From: Oscillospiraceae bacterium
GTDB taxonomy: Bacteria > Bacillota > Clostridia > Oscillospirales > Oscillospiraceae
Direction of reading: 5' to 3'
Assembly: GCA_021771635.1 (NCBI GenBank)
Contig: JAETOQ010000003.1
Location: 1-64,000, forward strand
Length of the DNA stretch: 64,000 nt
The notes beneath the pieces are model-generated. The model searched no databases. It was given only the letters and a program-made list of their open reading frames with translations, and was not told the origin of the DNA. Shown piece by piece: positions 221-9,895 of the stretch. Position 1 is the stretch's first letter. Each line of letters opens with the position of its first letter. Both the position numbers and the translations under genes were made by a program.

Positions 221-3200
221 TCAGACTTCGGCGGGAATCTCTTCGGCGCCGGGAGACGCGGGGGTATCCTTGCGCTTTTTCCGGTGGAAGTGCTTGGGCA
301 GGTCATCGATGACCGAGTAGTAAACAGGGGTGAACAGCAGGGTGATGATCGTGGAGATGATCATGCCGCTCATCATGGTGATGCCCATGTCGCTCATCAT
401 TTCGTTGGTGTCGCCGATGCCCAGGGCCATGGGGACCATAGCCAGAACGGTGGTCAGGGTAGTCATCATAATGGGGCGGATGCGCAGAGGGCAGGCCTTC
501 AGAATGGCGTCCTCCCGGCTCTCGCCCATCTCCCGGCGGATCTTGATGTATTCCACCAGGATGATGGAGTTGTTGACCACCGTGCCCGCCAGCATGATCA
601 GGGCCACCAGGGAGATCATGGACAGGTCCCGGCCTGTGACAGGCAGGGCAAACAGCGCGCCGGTGAAGGCCACCGGCAGGATCATCATGACGATGACCGG
701 CATCAGGAAAGACTCGAACTGGGCCGCCAGCACGAAGTACACCAGGCCCAATGCCACCAGCAGGGCCAGCAGCAGGTCGGAGAAGTTCTCCATCATGTCC
801 GTGTAACTGCCGGTCAATTCAGCGGTATAGCCCTCCGGCATCGGATACCGGTCCAAAAGCTGGGTGAGTTCCTTGGTCATCTCCGTGGCATTGCCGCTGA
901 TGGTGCCGCCGGTGATGTTCACCTGGCGGGACTGGTTGACACGGGTAATGGTCTGAGGAGCCTGAACGATGTCGACATTGGCGATGGAGGCCAGGGGCAC
1001 ATAGCCGCCCATGGCGGTGGCCACCGGCATGGACCGCAGAGCGTCCAGACTGGCGGCGGCGGAACCGTCGCCCTTGACCACCACGTCCAGCTCCTTGTTG
1101 TCGATGGTGACGGTGGTGGCGGTGCTGCCGGTCAGCTCGGAGCGGACGGCGGCGCCCACCTGGGCGGCCGTCAGACCGTACTGAGAGGCTGCCTCCCGGT
1201 TCATGGTGACCTTCACCTGGGGGACCTGCTCCGCCACAGAGCTGGTGACGTCCACGGCGTCCGGCAGCTGAGAGATCTCCGCCATGAGATCATCAGCGAT
1301 CATGGTCAGTGTGCCGTAATCGTCGCCGGTGATCTCCACGCTGATGTCGCTGCCGCCCATCATGGCGGTCATGTCGGAGGCGGAGACGGTGATCTCGCAG
1401 CCGGCGATATCCGCCAGCGGGGCCCGCAGGCTGTCCGCCACGTCGCTGCTGCTGCGCTTCCGGTCGCCCCGGTCCACCAGATTCAGCGTGACGGAGGCGG
1501 ACTCGGGCTGGCAGGTGTAGTACAGGCTGTCCAGCTCCGGCACCTGGACCTGGGCGAGAGACACCACCCGGTCGGCGATGGCCGAGGTCTCATTGATATC
1601 CGAGCCAATGGGGGTGCTGATGGAGACGGAGACCATGCCCTGGTCCATCTCCGGCATCAGGACCATGTTGGTGGAGAGGCAGCTGATAATAAAGATGGCC
1701 ACCAGACCAAAGGAGACCAGCATTCCGATTTTCAGATGATGGACAAAGTAGTCCAGCAGGCGGATATAGCGGTCGTAGAGCTTTTTGATCCACTGGCCGC
1801 AGCAGGCCACGATGGGGTTGGGCTTTTTGGATGCCTGTTTCAGCTGCTGCGCCCGGACCTTGTCCGTGTCCAGCAGCATGTAGCACAGCAGGGGGACCCA
1901 GGTCAGGGCGATGACCAGGGAGCCCAGGATCAGAAAGGCAATGGTCAGGCAGAAGTCCTTGAACAGCATGCCCGCCATGCCTCCGGTGAGGCCCAGGGGC
2001 AGGAACACGGCCACCGTGGTCAGGGTGGAGGCCATGACAGAGGTGGTGACCTCCTTGGTGCCGTCCACGCAGGCGCTCATGCGGTCATGGCCCTCGGCAG
2101 CGAAGCGGTAGATGTTTTCCAGTACGACGATGGAGTTGTCCACGATCATGCCCACGCCCATGGCGATACCGCCCAGGGACATCATGTTCAGCGTCAGGTC
2201 AAACACGTTCATCAGCACGAACACCGCCAGGATGCACACGGGCATGGACACGGCGATGGTCATGGTGGCGCCCCAGCGGCGCAGGAACAGGAATACCACA
2301 ACGGCGGCCAGCAGCACGCCCAGCATGATGTTCTGCAGGGCGGAATCCACGGCCAGATTGATGTAGTCCGAGGCCAGATAGGGGGTTGCGTAGTGGATGC
2401 CGGCGTTCTCCGCCGCCAGTTCCGCCATCCGCTCCTCCACGGCGTCGGAGGTGGCTGCCTCATTGGCGCCGGACTGCTTGGAGACCTGCAGGATCACGCA
2501 GGGGCTCCCATCCATCTGGGCCAGGGTGTCGGTATCCTGGGTGGCCAGCGCCACATCCGCCACTTCGCTGAGGCGGACGGTGCCGCCGGTGGGCAGAGCC
2601 ACCAGCATGTTGGCAACATCCTCCACAGATTGGAACTTGGCGTCCGTACTGACTGTCAGAGCCTTGGAGCCGTTCTGCATATCACCGCCGGGATACAGCA
2701 GGTTCTCCGCCGCCAGGAACTGGGAGATGTAGCTGCTGGACAGGCCGAAGCCCGATGCCCGGGTGGGATCGATGCGCACTTCGATCTGCTGCTCCACGCC
2801 GCCGCCGACAGACACGGAGGCCACGCCGTCGATGCGCTCCAGGGCGGGGGAGATGGTGTCCTCCGCCAGGGCCTGGAGGTCTGCCAGGTCGCTGCCCATC
2901 AAGGCGATGATGGCCGTGGGCATCAGGTCGCTGATATTGATGTTGACGATGATGGGGTCCATGGCGCCGTCCGGCAGGGAGAGCATGTCAAATTTCTCCC
3001 GCAGCTTGGTGGCGGCGATATCCAGGTCCGTGTCCTCCACATAGGTGATCTGGACCTGGCTGACGCCGTCCGACGAGGTGGAGGACACGGAGTCCACACC
3101 GGGGACGGACATGATGGCCGTCTCCAGGGGCCGGGTCACCAGCTCCTCAATGTCGCTGGGGGTGGCGCCGTTGTAGTAGCACATGACCAGCGCCATGGGC

Positions 3201-3325
3201 GCCTCCATATCCGGCAGCAGGGACATTTGGAGCTGGGTGGTGAATACCACGCCGAAGATGGCGATCATGATGACCGCCAGCAGCGTCGATACCTTATGCT
3301 TGATGCAAAATTTTGCTGTACTCAT
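221..3325 (-). CDS. RND family efflux pump, inner-membrane transporter
   Basis: A 1034-residue protein of the AcrB/HAE1 type, the usual full length for this family. An N-terminal membrane segment follows a short basic head. Two large extracytoplasmic loops alternate with two blocks of membrane helices, giving the duplicated 12-helix RND plan. The TM4 relay motif reads IVDNSIVVLENIYR, so one of the two neighbouring Asp residues of AcrB is Asn here. The second half carries VVNNSIILVEYIK. It is expected to export drugs or lipophilic compounds using an ion gradient. The gene is the last of a TetR - TolC-like - adaptor - pump operon and starts 6 bp after the adaptor stop, with a GGAGG site upstream. 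The substrate cannot be read from sequence. Confidence 0.95.
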   Translation of the reverse strand: MSTAKFCIKHKVSTLLAVIMIAIFGVVFTTQLQMSLLPDMEAPMALVMCYYNGATPSDIEELVTRPLETAIMSVPGVDSVSSTSSDGVSQVQITYVEDTDLDIAATKLREKFDMLSLPDGAMDPIIVNINISDLMPTAIIALMGSDLADLQALAEDTISPALERIDGVASVSVGGGVEQQIEVRIDPTRASGFGLSSSYISQFLAAENLLYPGGDMQNGSKALTVSTDAKFQSVEDVANMLVALPTGGTVRLSEVADVALATQDTDTLAQMDGSPCVILQVSKQSGANEAATSDAVEERMAELAAENAGIHYATPYLASDYINLAVDSALQNIMLGVLLAAVVVFLFLRRWGATMTIAVSMPVCILAVFVLMNVFDLTLNMMSLGGIAMGVGMIVDNSIVVLENIYRFAAEGHDRMSACVDGTKEVTTSVMASTLTTVAVFLPLGLTGGMAGMLFKDFCLTIAFLILGSLVIALTWVPLLCYMLLDTDKVRAQQLKQASKKPNPIVACCGQWIKKLYDRYIRLLDYFVHHLKIGMLVSFGLVAIFIISCLSTNMVLMPEMDQGMVSVSISTPIGSDINETSAIADRVVSLAQVQVPELDSLYYTCQPESASVTLNLVDRGDRKRSSSDVADSLRAPLADIAGCEITVSASDMTAMMGGSDISVEITGDDYGTLTMIADDLMAEISQLPDAVDVTSSVAEQVPQVKVTMNREAASQYGLTAAQVGAAVRSELTGSTATTVTIDNKELDVVVKGDGSAAASLDALRSMPVATAMGGYVPLASIANVDIVQAPQTITRVNQSRQVNITGGTISGNATEMTKELTQLLDRYPMPEGYTAELTGSYTDMMENFSDLLLALLVALGLVYFVLAAQFESFLMPVIVMMILPVAFTGALFALPVTGRDLSMISLVALIMLAGTVVNNSIILVEYIKIRREMGESREDAILKACPLRIRPIMMTTLTTVLAMVPMALGIGDTNEMMSDMGITMMSGMIISTIITLLFTPVYYSVIDDLPKHFHRKKRKDTPASPGAEEIPAEV

Positions 3326-3331
3326 TTGCCG

Positions 3332-4594
3332 TTATGCCTCCCCGGCAGGGGCCTGTTCATCCGGGGAAGCGGTCTCGCCGGGTGTTTCGCTGGAGGCTTC
3401 ATCAGGCGTTTCCACCGGCGCCGCGGAAATTTGCGTGTTCTCCTCCGTGACGATCCGCACAGGGGCGCCGTCGGACAGATAGGCCTGACCGACCGTCACC
3501 AGCTGCTCACCGGCGGAGAGACCGGAGAGGATCTCCGTAACGCCGCTGCCGGTGAGTCCGGTGGTGACCTCCACATACCGGGCGGTGTCGCCCTCCACCA
3601 CATAGACGTACTGGGTGTCGCCGCTGGTGAGGATGGCCTCCGTGGGGACCACGATGGCGTTTTCGGAGACATCGGTGTGGAAGGTCACGTCGGCAAACAT
3701 ACCGGAGAGCAGGTCCGTCACGTCAGCGGGAACGGTGAGGGTGACGGTGTACAGCTTGGTTTGGATATTAGCTGCCCGCTCCACGGAACGGATGGTGGCG
3801 GTGAAGTGTTTGTCAATGGCACTGACATATACGTCCGCTTCGCTGCCGGCGTCCAGCTTGGGCACCAGCGCCTCGGAGACGGAGACGGTGACCTTCATCT
3901 GGTCCGCGCCGTCAATGACCGCCAGCGGCATGGAGTTGGAGATGAAGCTGTTTTCCACGGCGTTCATGGTCACCAGTGTGCCGGACATGGGGGCGATGAC
4001 GTTGCCGTCCGTGTCCACGTTTTCCAGCGCGGTATCCAGCTGTTCCAGGCCGGATTTGGCATTTTGGATCCCGGCCTCCAGCTGGGACAGGGCGGAGTTC
4101 CGCCCGGCCACCGCGTTCAGATAGTTCAGCTCCGCCTGGTCCACCTCCAGCTGGGAGGCGGCGCCGATCTCAAACAGGGCCTTGGTGTTGTTGAGGTTGT
4201 CGGCCGCCAGCCCCACCTGTTTGTCCAGGACGGCTTTCTGGTCCTGATAGCTCTGCACCGTGGAGTTGTAGCTGATGCGGGCGGCGTTATAGGACGCCAG
4301 GGAGCTGCCCAGGTCCAGGGTGCAGAGGATATCTCCCGCTTCCACCAGATCACCGGCCTGTGCGTACACAGCGGTGCACTTGGCGGTAGAGGCGATGAGG
4401 ATCGTGGCCTCGTTATCCGCGGAGATCTTGCCGGAGACCTTGTTTTCCGCGGCAATGGTGTCGGCGGATACCGTCTCCACCTGGACGGCCGTGCCCGCGG
4501 CCGGCGCCTCCTCCGGCTCCTCACTGCCGCAGGCCGTCAGGGACAGGGCCAGGACGGCGGCCAGCAGAGCGGCGGCAATACGATTTCGTTTCAT
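3332..4594 (-). CDS. RND efflux periplasmic-type adaptor subunit (HlyD/AcrA family)
   Basis: A 420-residue lipoprotein. Its signal peptide ends in the lipobox LTAC (cleavage before Cys22). The order is barrel/lipoyl half, a coiled-coil hairpin (roughly residues 90-190, rich in Gln/Leu/Ala), the second lipoyl half, then beta-barrel and membrane-proximal domains. A Pro/Glu-rich C-terminal tail follows. Adaptors of this family link an RND pump to a TolC-type channel, and genes for both flank it here. The start has an AGGAGG site 11 nt upstream. In a single-membrane organism it would sit on the outer face of the cytoplasmic membrane. Confidence 0.93.
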   Translation of the reverse strand: MKRNRIAAALLAAVLALSLTACGSEEPEEAPAAGTAVQVETVSADTIAAENKVSGKISADNEATILIASTAKCTAVYAQAGDLVEAGDILCTLDLGSSLASYNAARISYNSTVQSYQDQKAVLDKQVGLAADNLNNTKALFEIGAASQLEVDQAELNYLNAVAGRNSALSQLEAGIQNAKSGLEQLDTALENVDTDGNVIAPMSGTLVTMNAVENSFISNSMPLAVIDGADQMKVTVSVSEALVPKLDAGSEADVYVSAIDKHFTATIRSVERAANIQTKLYTVTLTVPADVTDLLSGMFADVTFHTDVSENAIVVPTEAILTSGDTQYVYVVEGDTARYVEVTTGLTGSGVTEILSGLSAGEQLVTVGQAYLSDGAPVRIVTEENTQISAAPVETPDEASSETPGETASPDEQAPAGEA

Positions 4595-4609
4595 GTGATT
4601 CAGGTCCTC

Positions 4610-4880
4610 CTATGATAATGTCTGCTGAATAAACCGCAAATCGGTTTATTCGCGCGGCGGCAGCCGCGCAATTCCATAAAACCGGCTCAAAGGAGCCGCT
4701 TTTATGGAATCCAGCCATTGTTACAATGCGTATTTCCACCGGTAGCGCTGAGACGCACCAGTGGCTGGTGCAAGGCTTTTGGACAATTTCGTTCAAAAAC
4801 CTTGCACTTGAACAAAGCCTATTGCTCTTGAAAGTTGGCTTTCAAGACTTTCGGCGTTGTTCAATACGCATTATGATAAA
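4610..4880. repeat. Hairpin mosaic between adaptor and TolC-like genes
   Basis: This non-coding stretch of about 330 bp (4595-4928) is built from consecutive inverted repeats. They are AATAAACCG/CGGTTTATT, GCGCGGC/GCCGCGC, a TTCCATAAAA..TTTTATGGAA stem, GCAAGG..CCTTGC and CTTGAAAG..CTTTCAAG. The last modules are enclosed by a perfect 10-bp inverted repeat, AATGCGTATT at 4725-4734 and AATACGCATT at 4863-4872. It splits an otherwise tight operon and may act as a terminator, processing site or dead MITE. No function is demonstrated. Confidence 0.75.
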
Positions 4881-4928
4881 GTATCTGATCCCATCCGCAT
4901 GACTGGGACAGCTGCTCTGAGACAGGCG

Positions 4929-6317
4929 TCAGTTCAAAACGCCGTGCTGCACAGCCCAGCAGTAGGTGTTGTAGGAAGAGAACAGATCGTTGGCGGAGGT
5001 GCGCACCTTTTCCTCCGCCTCGCGCAGATCGTCCTCGGCGTCCAGAAGGGCGTTTTTGGAGATGGTGCCCTGCTGGTATTTCAGCTCCATGGACGCATAG
5101 CTGTCCTGCTGGCAGGCCAGGGCGGTCTTGGCGGCGTCCCAGATCTGCTTGTAGTCGTTCACCTGGGCGTACAGAGTGCGGAACTTCAGCTCATAGTCCT
5201 GAATGGTGTTATTGTATGTATACTGTGCGGCCTGCCATGAATGTTTGGCGGCAAGGAACTCATACTTCTTCTCATTGTATCCGTATTTGCGGCCGGATTC
5301 TTTATAGTCCTCCTGGGCGTCCTCCAACGTTCTGGCGGCGGCATACAGGTCGTAGCTTTTCTCCTTGGCGGCCAGCAGGTCGGTCTCCAGATCCATGGCC
5401 CCCAGCTGCTTCTCCGTCACCTCCGGTACGGGTCCCAGCTGGATCTCACCGGTCTGCTCCGCGCCGATCAGCATTTCCAGCTGCAGCTTGTAATTCCGGA
5501 TGTTCATGCGCAGCGTCTCCAGGCCGCTGACCAGGGCCGTCCGCCCGGATCTGACCTCGGAGAGCTGAAGGGCGGAGATCTGTCCCATCTGATAGCGCAG
5601 CTCCATCTCCTCCACGGTGCGGTTCAGGGAGTCCAGCTGCCGCTGGAGCGCCGCCTCCTGGATGTCCATGGCCCGCACGGCCACATACAGGGCCTCACCG
5701 GCGATGACGATCTGATCCTGCAAGGCTTTCAACTGGCGGATGGTGGCGGCGTTGTCCTCCTGCATCTCGCCGTCCCGAATGGCGTCAAACTGCTCCCGCA
5801 CGGCATCATACTGCGTCTGCAGGTTCTGGGACGCCAGACTGCCCGCAATGGGTTCCCCCATCATGCCGGAGGAGGTGATCATACCCCACTGGGCGTCGGC
5901 GATATCATTCAGAGTTTCCCGGAGGCTTTGCTCCAGCTTGTCGTAGTCGATCACCTCCAAGGCCTGGATGTTTTCCTCCAGGACCAGCACCTGCAGGTTT
6001 TTCTCCCGCATCCGGCGCTCCACGTTGGCGAAGGTGACGGTGCCCACCTCGTCAGGGACGGTCTCCACCGCCTCCGTCAGCGATTCTCCCGTCTCGGGAT
6101 CGATTTCCGGCTCCGTGTCCGGTCCCGCCGGAGAGAGCGGCTCTTCCTCTTCGGCAGGCGCTCCGTCCTCGGTGTCCCCCGCGGCTTCGGTGCCGTCCGT
6201 TGTCTCCTCGGCGGCCTGATCCTCTGCCGGTGCTTCCTCTCCCGCCAGGGCGGACACCGCGCACAGGGAGAGCGTCAGCGCCAGGGCCAGAAGCAGTGCA
6301 ATGATTCGCTGTTTCAT
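4929..6317 (-). CDS. TolC family outer-channel-like protein
   Basis: A 462-residue secreted protein. The track start lies 13 codons upstream. The ATG at 6317 is preferred because GAGGAGG sits 6 nt before it and the protein then begins with a clean signal peptide (MKQRIIALLLALALTLSL). After the signal comes an acidic Glu/Asp/Pro-rich linker of about 60 residues. Two long helical coiled-coil repeats follow, typical of the outer membrane efflux protein fold. TolC proteins form the exit duct of tripartite pumps. The gene lies in one operon with the adaptor and RND pump. An outer-membrane-style duct in a probably monoderm Firmicute is unusual, so it may span the wall instead. Confidence 0.85.
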   Translation of the reverse strand: MKQRIIALLLALALTLSLCAVSALAGEEAPAEDQAAEETTDGTEAAGDTEDGAPAEEEEPLSPAGPDTEPEIDPETGESLTEAVETVPDEVGTVTFANVERRMREKNLQVLVLEENIQALEVIDYDKLEQSLRETLNDIADAQWGMITSSGMMGEPIAGSLASQNLQTQYDAVREQFDAIRDGEMQEDNAATIRQLKALQDQIVIAGEALYVAVRAMDIQEAALQRQLDSLNRTVEEMELRYQMGQISALQLSEVRSGRTALVSGLETLRMNIRNYKLQLEMLIGAEQTGEIQLGPVPEVTEKQLGAMDLETDLLAAKEKSYDLYAAARTLEDAQEDYKESGRKYGYNEKKYEFLAAKHSWQAAQYTYNNTIQDYELKFRTLYAQVNDYKQIWDAAKTALACQQDSYASMELKYQQGTISKNALLDAEDDLREAEEKVRTSANDLFSSYNTYCWAVQHGVLN

Positions 6318-6327
6318 ATGTGCCTCC

Positions 6328-6957
6328 TCAGTCAGGGTTTTCCAGGCAGTCCGCACGCAGACTGCCGCGTTTGATGATATCCAGGCGCTCGGCTAGCTCC
6401 CGCCGGTATTCCTCGTTCCGTTCGGGCTTTGTCAGGCTGTCCATCATGGCGGTGCCCAGACTTAGTGTCGCCATGGAGAATACCCGCCGGACAAATTCCA
6501 GGTCCTGCCGCCGGAGCCGGGAGATGTCCAGCTGGTCCAGCAATTCCTCCAGCGGTTTTTCCGGCGGCGCTGACGCGACCTTTTCCAGATCGATTCCGGC
6601 GTTGACCTGCAAAACACGGATGAACCGGTTCAGCAGAGGGCTGCAGGCCGTGTTCCGTCTCTCACAAAAGCTGTCATATGCCAGAAGCTGTACGCGGAAG
6701 ATATCCCCTTCCGCCTGGACCAACAGCTCTTTGAACGCCCGCAGAAAATGCTCCCGGATATCGTTCAGAAGGTAGGCAAACAGGTCGGCCTTATCGGCAA
6801 AGTACTGATAAAAGCTGCCCCGTGGAATGCCCGCCCGCCGGATGATCTTGTTGATGGAAGCGTCTGAGTAGGAAACGGCGGTGAATTCCTCCCAGGCCGC
6901 ATCCAGAAAACGGCTCCGCTTCTCCTCAGGCAGACGGAGAAACGTCTCTGTACACAT
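6328..6957 (-). CDS. TetR/AcrR family transcriptional regulator
   Basis: A 209-residue protein. The N-terminal helix-turn-helix (residues about 10-55) contains IIRRAGIPRGSFYQYFADK, the classic TetR recognition-helix pattern. The C-terminal ~150 residues form a helical ligand-binding domain with no diagnostic motif. It is the first gene of the efflux operon, 10 bp ahead of the TolC-like gene. Two TGACA-type palindromes sit directly after its own promoter. The simplest reading is an autorepressor that releases the operon when a pump substrate binds. Confidence 0.93.
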   Translation of the reverse strand: MCTETFLRLPEEKRSRFLDAAWEEFTAVSYSDASINKIIRRAGIPRGSFYQYFADKADLFAYLLNDIREHFLRAFKELLVQAEGDIFRVQLLAYDSFCERRNTACSPLLNRFIRVLQVNAGIDLEKVASAPPEKPLEELLDQLDISRLRRQDLEFVRRVFSMATLSLGTAMMDSLTKPERNEEYRRELAERLDIIKRGSLRADCLENPD

Positions 6958-7150: not shown

Positions 7151-7888
7151 TCACTTTTTGCTCTGGCAGCGCAGGGACAGCTGCTCTGCCGTGATGGCAT
7201 AGCCGTCCTCCGCCCAGCGGTCCACTGGGCGCTCCTCCGGCAGAGTCTCGCCTCTGTGCCGGTAGATGGCGGCGGCCACCGTCTCCAGCAGCCGGGGGTT
7301 CTTCACCAGGATGGGCCCGGTGAGCTGGGAGGCAAACACACTGTTCCGGTGGAAGCCCTCGGCGCCTCCCGGCCCCTCGTTTCCATAGCCCATGGCAACA
7401 GAGGTCAGCAGGGGCGTGTCCACGCCCTTGATGATGGTGCATTTATTCATGAAGCCCACCACCGCCTCAGGGTAGAGGTCGGTCTTGCCGTAAACGTCCT
7501 CCACGAACCGCTTCCTGCCCTGCACAGAGGTAAAATCCGCCAGACCGATGCCGTCGAAGACCTTGCCGCCGGCGTCGGTGATGGACCTGCCCAGAAGCTC
7601 CATGGCAGTCCCGGCAAAGAGCATGGTGACGCCGCCTTCAGCGGCAGCCTTCACGGCCCCGCCGAACCGGGCAAAGTCCGCCAGAGCGGCCTTTTGGGCC
7701 CGCTCGGTGCCGGCACCCATGAAGAGGAAGTCGGCCTGGGAGAGGTCGGCCTCCTGACCGGGGGCCACCGTCTCCACGCTCACGGCATTGCCCAGCCCCT
7801 CCAGATACCGCCGCAGGACCGACACATTGGCATAGCTGCCGTACAGGCTCATGAGATCGGGGTAGAAGTGGATGATCTTCAGTTCCAT
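7151..7888 (-). CDS. GatD-like class I glutamine amidotransferase, catalytic dyad missing
   Basis: A 245-residue protein with the fold and order of GatD, the partner of MurT in lipid II glutamate amidation. In GatD the nucleophile sits in ICGGYQxLG and the histidine in YLHGPIL. Here the matching stretches read AGTAMELLG (Gly near residue 93) and QLTGPIL (Thr near 190). Both catalytic residues therefore appear replaced, while GYGNEGPGGAEG and GPILVKNPRL around them are kept. As written it should not hydrolyse glutamine. It starts 4 bp after the MurT-like gene, so the two probably form a complex. It could be a structural subunit, an ammonia-channel remnant or a repurposed domain. The alignment was made by eye. 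Confidence 0.8.
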   Translation of the reverse strand: MELKIIHFYPDLMSLYGSYANVSVLRRYLEGLGNAVSVETVAPGQEADLSQADFLFMGAGTERAQKAALADFARFGGAVKAAAEGGVTMLFAGTAMELLGRSITDAGGKVFDGIGLADFTSVQGRKRFVEDVYGKTDLYPEAVVGFMNKCTIIKGVDTPLLTSVAMGYGNEGPGGAEGFHRNSVFASQLTGPILVKNPRLLETVAAAIYRHRGETLPEERPVDRWAEDGYAITAEQLSLRCQSKK

Positions 7889-7892
7889 GTCC

Positions 7893-9227
7893 TCACGCCT
7901 CCTTTTTCACATCCGGCAGAGTCAGCAGCTTGTCCCGGTCGGAGAAGCAGGTGATCACATACAGGTCCTCACCGCCCTCTTCCCTTAAAGCGGCCGCGGC
8001 GGCGGCAATGTCCGGCTGGACAGACCAGACCTCCGGGGAAATGGAGGTGAAGGAGAACCGCTCCGCCAGATCATTGCAGTACCGGCCCGAGAGGAGGATC
8101 CGCTTCACATGACCGCAGTTCAGCTGGTCGAAGTCGATGTCCCACAGCCAGCTGGTCTCGCTGGTGAAGTACTTCCGGCTCACCGCGTCCACGATGATGA
8201 GGACCGTGCAGTCCGCCTTGGTGGAGGCCACATACCGCAGGTTGGTGTCGTAGGCGATGCTGTTCTCGTGCTTGGAGGTCAGGAGCGTCCCGTGATGCGC
8301 CCCCAGGGTGAACTTCTGCATCCGGCCGTTTTTCAGGATGTAGTTGTTGATGACGCCCGCGATCCGCTCCGGCGCCGTGCCGCACTCCCGGCAGGCGGCA
8401 TAGGCCGCCAGAATGTTGTACACATTGTAAATGCTGCGAAACGCCAGCTGGATGGTCACGGTCCCGTCGATGGTCAGCGTGCCGTTTTCCAGGTCCGCCG
8501 CTGTGGCGGTGTAGTCCGTGGCGGGCTTAGCGTGGCCGCATTTCGTGCAGCGGTAGGCGCCGATGTGGTTGTAATGGACGTAATCGTATTCCATGGGGGC
8601 GTGGCACAGGGGGCAGTAGGCGCCGTCGTGATACACGCCGGTGGGGGCGCCGGTGGAGACGGCGCACTTGTCCAGGCCGAACCAGCGCACCTTGCCGTGC
8701 CCGTTGGCAAAACAGCTGGACAGGGGATCATCTGCGTTCAGGATCAGCTCCGTCTCGGAGTGGATGGCGGGCAGGATGGCGTCGTACACCCACTCGGGAT
8801 GGCCGTTCCGGGTCAGCTGATCCCGGTACAGGTTGGTGACCACGAACTCGGTGGGATGGAAGAACTTGAAGCTGTGGGCGGCGTAGCGCTCGTCGGACTC
8901 GATCAGCAGCACATCCGCCCGCACCCGACCGCTCAGGGTGGCGTGGGTCAGCACCAGGGTGGTGACGCCCTCGATCTGGTTGGAGCCCTCCTCGTTGTAG
9001 ACCACGTTTTTCCCGTCGGCCCGGAGAATGGCGGCGATCATCTCCACGGTGGAGGTCTTGCCGTTGGAGCCGGTGACGGCGATGATGTGGGGCGGCAGCT
9101 GCACCCGGGCCAGGATATCCGGGCAGATCTTCAGGGCGAACTTGCCGGGCATGGAGCTGCCCTTGCCAATGAGTTTGCCTACGAAACGGCCCAGCTTGCA
9201 CACGACGATGGCGAGAAATTTTCTCAT
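7893..9227 (-). CDS. MurT-like Mur ligase with zinc ribbon
   Basis: A 444-residue Mur ligase family protein. It has the P-loop GSNGKTS (residues 53-59), LNADDP near 164 and a four-cysteine ribbon CPLC/CTKC (205, 208, 227, 230), the insertion that marks MurT. The C-terminal DUF1727-type domain contains TSWLWDIDF. MurT activates the glutamate of lipid II for amidation. This copy departs from canonical MurT: the usual NPxGxNQ segment reads SKHENSIAYDTN, and the acidic residue before TSW is Glu. It overlaps the upstream cyclase gene by 4 bp (ATGA) and is followed by the GatD-like gene. It may act on another substrate or use free ammonia. Confidence 0.85.
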   Translation of the reverse strand: MRKFLAIVVCKLGRFVGKLIGKGSSMPGKFALKICPDILARVQLPPHIIAVTGSNGKTSTVEMIAAILRADGKNVVYNEEGSNQIEGVTTLVLTHATLSGRVRADVLLIESDERYAAHSFKFFHPTEFVVTNLYRDQLTRNGHPEWVYDAILPAIHSETELILNADDPLSSCFANGHGKVRWFGLDKCAVSTGAPTGVYHDGAYCPLCHAPMEYDYVHYNHIGAYRCTKCGHAKPATDYTATAADLENGTLTIDGTVTIQLAFRSIYNVYNILAAYAACRECGTAPERIAGVINNYILKNGRMQKFTLGAHHGTLLTSKHENSIAYDTNLRYVASTKADCTVLIIVDAVSRKYFTSETSWLWDIDFDQLNCGHVKRILLSGRYCNDLAERFSFTSISPEVWSVQPDIAAAAAALREEGGEDLYVITCFSDRDKLLTLPDVKKEA

Positions 9228-9895
9228 GCCTGTTCCATCTCCTTCTCGGAAAAATCCCGGAATTCCGCGATGGCGCGGACCGGCGCGCCGTCGGCGTTTT
9301 TATATTTCAGCGGCAGGGCGAAGAACATCAGGTCGTTCCGGCCCACTACCTTTTTCAGACACAGGCTCTCGATGATGACCAGACCGCCGTTCAACAGGAT
9401 CTTGTGGGCGGAGAGGGTGTCCCCCCGCAGAGTATCCACGCTGAGGGCGTCGGTGCCCACGCCCTTGAGGCCGCAGGAGACCAGGTACTTGGCCGCCTCC
9501 TCGTCAGGGACCGGGAAGGTGTCCTCATAGTAGGCGTCCGTGCCCCACTTCTTCTCCCATCCGGTGTAGAACAGCACAAAGTCCGCGGACCGGACGGCGC
9601 CGTTCTGCTCCCGCAGGAAGTCGGCGGTGATGACGCCGCCGGGGGCCATATGGGACACGTCCAGCACGATGGCCCGCCCGCAGAAGTGGGAGGCGGGCAG
9701 GAGCTCCAGGCTGGAGCCCTCCCGCAGCAGGTGAGAGGGAGCGTCCATATGGGTGCCGGTGTGGGAGGACAGGGTGATCTGCGTCTCCCGGTAGCCGGTC
9801 CGGGTCAGAGAGCCGGTGGCGGTCATGGAGGGTGCGGTGGAACCGGGATACATGGGCATTTCCGGCGTAATGGTGTGCGTCAGGTCAATAATCAT
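9224..9895 (-). CDS. Cyclase family protein (kynurenine formamidase-like metal hydrolase)
   Basis: A 223-residue protein with the family signature HTGTHMDAPSHL (residues about 45-56), whose His and Asp residues bind metal. A later conserved segment is GVGTDALSVD. Members include bacterial arylformamidase (KynB) and polyketide-type cyclases, and most hydrolyse amides or lactones. No tryptophan catabolism genes are nearby. The gene leads a three-gene operon and overlaps the MurT-like gene by 4 bp, suggesting linked action on an amide-containing substrate. The true substrate is unknown. Confidence 0.85.
   Translation of the reverse strand: MIIDLTHTITPEMPMYPGSTAPSMTATGSLTRTGYRETQITLSSHTGTHMDAPSHLLREGSSLELLPASHFCGRAIVLDVSHMAPGGVITADFLREQNGAVRSADFVLFYTGWEKKWGTDAYYEDTFPVPDEEAAKYLVSCGLKGVGTDALSVDTLRGDTLSAHKILLNGGLVIIESLCLKKVVGRNDLMFFALPLKYKNADGAPVRAIAEFRDFSEKEMEQA

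Follow-up and report, generated by a model that had tools for sequence, protein, structure and literature searches.

A divergent MurT and a pseudo-glutaminase GatD form a conserved pair in Oscillibacter-group gut bacteria and may use a donor other than glutamine

MurT/GatD, the lipid II isoglutaminyl synthase of S. aureus and S. pneumoniae, is essential in several pathogens and serves as a drug target; its product alters host recognition of peptidoglycan fragments. In the S. aureus enzyme, Cys94 and His189 of GatD together with Asp349 of MurT make up one putative glutaminase triad that spans both subunits (PMC6113224). Replacement of Cys94 by glycine or serine abolishes glutamine-dependent amidation (PMC3266927), and the D349N substitution in MurT abolishes catalysis with glutamine (PMC6113224). 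In S. pneumoniae, activity is strongly lowered by changes at the P-loop, the acceptor Asn, the Asp-Glu pair, Asp136, and Arg140 (PMC6085368).

Several other systems are related to the pair described below. By fold and profile, the nearest non-MurT Mur-type ligase is the archaeal pseudomurein peptide ligase C (PDB 6vr7), which has a longer N-terminal region and only 20% identity to the divergent MurT. By analogy, it may be an earlier example of amino-acid ligation among these relatives of MurT. We know of no GatD partner for ligase C. The MurC-F amino-acid ligases have ATP-dependent carboxylate activation in common with the divergent MurT, which differs from them in its truncated N-terminal domain and its GatD partner, as in MurT generally. 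The nearest described parallel is a MurT homologue of Methanopyrales and Methanobacteriales that has no glutaminase partner (PMC11915815); compared by that description, GatD is absent in the archaea, whereas a dead GatD has been kept here. A search of open papers turned up no published account of a dead-GatD clade.

The locus lies in a window of 64,000 nucleotides, the whole stretch analysed (positions 1 to 64,000 of contig JAETOQ010000003.1, assembly GCA_021771635.1, from an Oscillospiraceae bacterium). Three genes are transcribed from the minus strand, in the order of a cyclase-family gene (9895-9224), a MurT-like gene (9227-7893), and a GatD-like gene (7888-7151). The first two overlap by 4 bp (9224-9227) and the last two are separated by 4 bases (7889-7892); coordinates, strand, overlap, and gap were all reproduced as an earlier note on this DNA had given them. 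The mnmG gene lies upstream of the three, and a TetR gene and an RND efflux operon lie downstream. The TetR gene (6328-6957) adjoins the RND/HlyD/OEP efflux genes, which occupy 221-6356 of the minus strand and encode an AcrB-type RND pump, an HlyD-type adaptor, and an OEP/TolC-like outer-membrane efflux protein, in a lineage usually regarded as single-membrane. A 1443-aa open frame antisense to this operon (284-4615, plus strand) is probably an artefact of high G+C.

The GatD-like protein (245 aa; PF07685 GATase_3, 7.7e-14) retains the class-I GATase fold, the long C-terminal interface helix, and the interface loop, and its gene stands beside murT. Its AlphaFold model has a pLDDT of 97 and a TM-score of ~0.9 to S. 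aureus GatD. Both glutaminase residues are gone, and the description of this GatD as dead is thus borne out. In the alignment with the S. aureus protein (S. aureus numbering), Cys94 is opposite a glycine, Gly93 of the window protein, in the former nucleophile elbow LFAGTAMELLG (7586-7624, minus strand), and the catalytic His189 is opposite a threonine in VFASQLTGP (7313-7339, minus strand). In the latter motif the Gly-Pro is kept, and Pro191 of S. aureus contacts MurT. The curated GatD equivalog NF045636 scores 92 bits against its cut-off of 400. On these residues, the protein is almost certainly a pseudo-glutaminase, and the window complex is predicted not to use glutamine in the amidation of lipid II D-Glu.

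The divergent MurT (444 aa) comprises a Mur ligase middle domain (PF08245, 1.7e-12) and a MurT_C domain (PF08353, 1.3e-20, 73.9 bits). As the earlier note had reported, the P-loop and zinc ribbon are present and the NPxGxNQ segment is absent. The P-loop GSNGKTST (residues 53-60, 9048-9071; this and the following features are on the minus strand) and the zinc-ribbon cysteines C205, C208, C227, and C230 (8538-8615) are intact. Across the clade, TGSNGKTST is conserved, and the divergent alignment shows no variation at the four cysteines, the P-loop Lys/Thr, the acceptor Asn85, Asp112/Glu113, Asp136, or Arg140. Judged by alignment, all the ATP- and acceptor-site residues checked are retained.

Other parts of the protein have been exchanged for new ones. 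The segment KNPAGMN of S. aureus MurT is aligned with SKHENSIAYDTN in the window protein, two residues longer, within SKHENSIAYD (residues 318-327, 8247-8276), which takes the place of the canonical KNPAGxN. Further on, VDAVSRKYFTSETSWLWDIDF (residues 346-366, 8130-8192) stands in place of DNAADGRD-SWLWD, including the catalytic-triad Asp349; here DNAADGRD is opposite DAVSRKYFTSE, and Asp349 has become Glu. The clade consensus at the two sites is SKHENSxxYD and VDAVSRKYFTS[E/D]. In a third region, the active-site loop NLYRDQLTRNGHPEW (residues 132-146, 8790-8834), an invariant His143 occupies the position of a Glu in canonical MurT. This His was considered as the Mg-binding histidine of MurC-F; it lies in the same loop and in another alignment column, and the idea was given little weight. 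An AlphaFold model (pLDDT 85) finds the MurT proteins of S. pyogenes and S. pneumoniae at TM 0.70-0.74, and the MurT equivalogs NF045635 and NF052464, whose cut-off is 800 bits, score 185.8 and 203.1. The MurE motif of amino-acid-adding ligases has been discussed (PMC6113224). Stem-peptide type was weighed as a possible cause of the exchanged segments, and MurE of the window genome carries DNPR, as expected for meso-DAP.

Set beside the S. aureus and S. pneumoniae enzyme, the pair thus has in common the two-gene unit, the folds, the P-loop, the acceptor residues, the zinc ribbon, and the GatD C-terminal helix and Gly-Pro interface loop. It differs in lacking the glutaminase Cys and His, in having Glu mostly in place of Asp349, in the replacement of KNPAGxN and DNAADG, in the change from Glu143 to His in the loop, and in forming a separate clade. 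Since both the glutaminase-subunit and the equivalog comparisons fail, the name lipid II isoglutaminyl synthase should not be applied to it.

Among 247 genomes of the order, a MurT_C match was present in 63, with 17 of the canonical and 46 of the divergent type. Both GatD residues were lost in all 45 readable GatDs beside a divergent MurT and kept in all 16 readable partners of a canonical one. Named carriers of the divergent type include Oscillibacter valericigenes, O. ruminantium, Dysosmobacter, Flavonifractor, Pseudoflavonifractor, Candidatus Enterenecus, and Massiliimalia massiliensis, and a separate phylum-wide sample of 300 genomes contained mostly canonical pairs and a few divergent or partly changed ones. 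None of the 247 genomes of the order possessed both kinds of MurT, the sole second match being an 80-residue piece at a contig end, and so one kind appears to replace the other. By chance, 3.2 genomes with both would be expected, and the probability of finding none is 0.03 on the assumption of independent genomes, which they are not, so that the zero count lends replacement some support but is not strong evidence for it. In the window genome, a second, canonical MurT was sought and not found; it has a single MurT.

Divergence from canonical MurT was also upheld by phylogeny, where clustering with canonical proteins did not occur. In a MurT tree from all columns, 69 of 70 MurTs with a dead GatD clustered together, and in a mixture-model tree of 50 rows, from which the replaced segments and the His loop had been removed, the dead group formed one side of a branch with an SH-aLRT of 97. 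The dead clade likewise had an SH-aLRT of 96 in a GatD tree without the active-site columns. Recovery of one clade in both trees indicates that the pair was inherited together, and the MurT change and GatD death appear, from these trees, to share a single main origin. As a point against the mechanism proposed below, the association of dead GatD with the new MurT segments rests mainly on one evolutionary transition. The same state in 46 genomes of one clade is neither chance nor local decay. Across the main subtype, represented by 34 non-redundant sequences, 52-60% of the columns in the replacement segments had at least 95% identity, versus 13% in the rest of the protein; conservation so far above that of the remainder points to function, not decay. 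Within the genus, dN/dS (Nei-Gojobori) was ~0.2-0.4 for both genes; cross-genus values are unreliable, as synonymous sites saturate. The divergent MurT/dead GatD pair is therefore genuine and conserved, a variant of a known enzyme that characterises a whole lineage.

The C-terminal domain of a Mur ligase binds the incoming amino acid, and the two replaced MurT segments lie in that domain. A mechanism can be sketched. As the conserved residues suggest, MurT would bind ATP and phosphorylate a carboxylate; the likeliest one is the alpha-carboxylate that D-Glu presents in the lipid-linked peptidoglycan precursor. GatD, judged from its sequence and by analogy with the tested mutants, would be incapable of glutamine hydrolysis, and with the glutaminase residues missing, glutamine-derived ammonia would not be the nucleophile. 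The new conserved MurT segments would instead bind an amine or amino acid for ligation to D-Glu, GatD would remain as an obligatory structural subunit, and the cyclase would be a clade-specific accessory. That MurT is still an ATP-dependent ligase is very probable, and that its acceptor is D-Glu of the wall precursor, as homology suggests, is fairly likely. Given the rest, an amine or amino acid is somewhat favoured over free ammonia as the donor, with the new C-terminal segments pointing in that direction. As a whole, the proposal that a MurT/GatD heterodimer with a pseudo-glutaminase activates the D-Glu alpha-carboxylate for a nucleophile other than glutamine-derived ammonia comes close to an even prospect without quite reaching it. 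We would put forward only tentatively the more specific view that this MurT clade switched to a small amine or amino acid, retaining its former glutaminase as a pseudoenzyme, and makes a D-Glu modification undescribed in this large group of gut bacteria. In broader terms, these sequences suggest that many Oscillibacter-group gut bacteria probably attach something other than glutamine-derived ammonia to a wall building block. Cadaverine and putrescine are known on D-Glu in Negativicutes (PMC10628300), and a 2024 review has an entry for the peptidoglycan type of Oscillibacter but gives no data for it (PMC11382707).

The main rival to an amine or amino-acid donor is free ammonia: D-isoglutamine would be made from the cytoplasmic ammonia pool, and GatD would only shape the MurT active site. 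Other amidotransferases have ammonia-dependent versions, and gut anaerobes live amid much ammonia. Moreover, the S. aureus complex of MurT with GatD C94G can still draw on free ammonia at pH 8.5, for which GatD is required (PMC3266927), such that loss of the glutaminase alone demands no new donor. The failure of canonical and divergent forms to co-occur would also be expected if their products were identical. However, neither the wild-type S. aureus enzyme nor C94G used ammonia at pH 7.5 (PMC3266927), and this explanation leaves unaccounted for the exchange of two MurT segments for different, strongly conserved ones with two added residues. We consider it a credible possibility, albeit on the doubtful side.

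It is also conceivable that the acceptor has changed, and that the ligase acts on a small-molecule or envelope carboxylate rather than on the peptidoglycan stem peptide. The distance from the equivalog cut-offs (MurT 203 of 800 bits, GatD 92 of 400) would fit such a shift, as would the disappearance of the DNAAD residues proposed to touch the stem peptide. This is nonetheless unlikely, since the N-terminal region, the acceptor-site Asn, and the Asp-Glu pair are all retained, the presence of just one kind of MurT in each genome suggests that one took over the role of the other, and no genes of another pathway are linked to the locus. When gene neighbourhoods were compared across genera for hints of the donor, MurT and GatD alone recurred; the remainder was housekeeping synteny (mnmG, metallophosphoesterase, helicase).

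The same neighbourhoods bear on the cyclase. The first gene encodes a metal-dependent hydrolase of 223 aa (PF04199 Cyclase, 1.8e-36), in which the metal-binding motif HxGTHxDxPxH, shared with kynurenine formamidase, isatin hydrolase, and PDB 1r61 of this family, is intact as HTGTHMDAPSH (9731-9763, minus strand). It falls below the cut-off of the kynurenine formamidase (arylformamidase) equivalog TIGR03035 (104.7 of 223 bits). The earlier note had proposed that all three genes form a unit in which ligase and hydrolase act on one substrate; the cyclase might then free an amine donor or reverse the modification. One part of the note's reading stands: the divergent pair is itself conserved. MurT-GatD adjacency is near-universal in the clade. 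Where the cyclase is present, the 4-bp overlap is found at 32 of 39 loci and an intact metal motif at 38 of 39, with some genomes counted twice, and a local functional tie to MurT-GatD within the genus is possible. On the other hand, the cyclase lies directly upstream of MurT in only ~21 of the 33 genomes of the Oscillibacter-type genus with readable upstream DNA, roughly one in three lacking it there; among the more distant carriers it stands beside MurT at no locus. Several near-complete genomes of the genus also had no good homologue elsewhere. The cyclase is thus an accessory gene, not a core one, and is not needed for MurT-GatD function; a three-gene pathway is quite improbable, and the MurT-GatD pair is the more interesting part of the locus. 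That the operon is simply degenerating toward loss, as the faster divergence of GatD might suggest (mean pairwise identity of 37% in the clade, versus 53% for MurT), is already contradicted by reading frames that are intact in the loci examined, purifying selection, the conserved new segments, and a confident fold, and is hardly credible.

A common gut-bacterial lineage has lost the defining glutaminase step while keeping and conserving both subunits. Either its cells use free ammonia, a donor that the S. aureus enzyme did not accept in vitro at neutral pH, or another group is placed on D-Glu. The latter, if true, would change the immune ligands released by these bacteria. If the donor has switched, related enzymes could be candidates for adding glycine, diamino acids, or polyamines to D-Glu elsewhere; the papers searched named no enzyme for these additions in other bacteria.

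Further variation was observed among the loci. A subtype of the dead clade (~20 non-redundant sequences, e.g., L141, L142, L184, L197, L230, and L238) has the segments AKGQNPxACSR and SENxxW and the loop NLFRDSIxRNAHPEY, and these differences could mean that there is more than one donor among the dead clade. In one genome labelled as the same genus (G010), the MurT/GatD belongs to the other dead subtype and seems to be divided between contigs C156 and C40 (L034, L035), possibly through contamination or replacement. At six Oscillospiraceae MAG loci (L084, L086, L088, L091, L096, and L099), MurT and GatD are ~130-770 bases apart, versus the usual few bases. A second, independent dead GatD (AISAGYQ, LQGP) occurs at L227 (G713), in another genus of the phylum (code g321), beside a MurT with NPAGFNQ and DLPADGRD, and at L219 and L228 of the same genus code, GatD is dead or was not found beside such a MurT. 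Finally, at L221, L222, and L223 (family code f44), the GatD Cys has become Gly with the His kept, and the MurT segments read SISSFEQ together with an acidic DDEDDEEE stretch.
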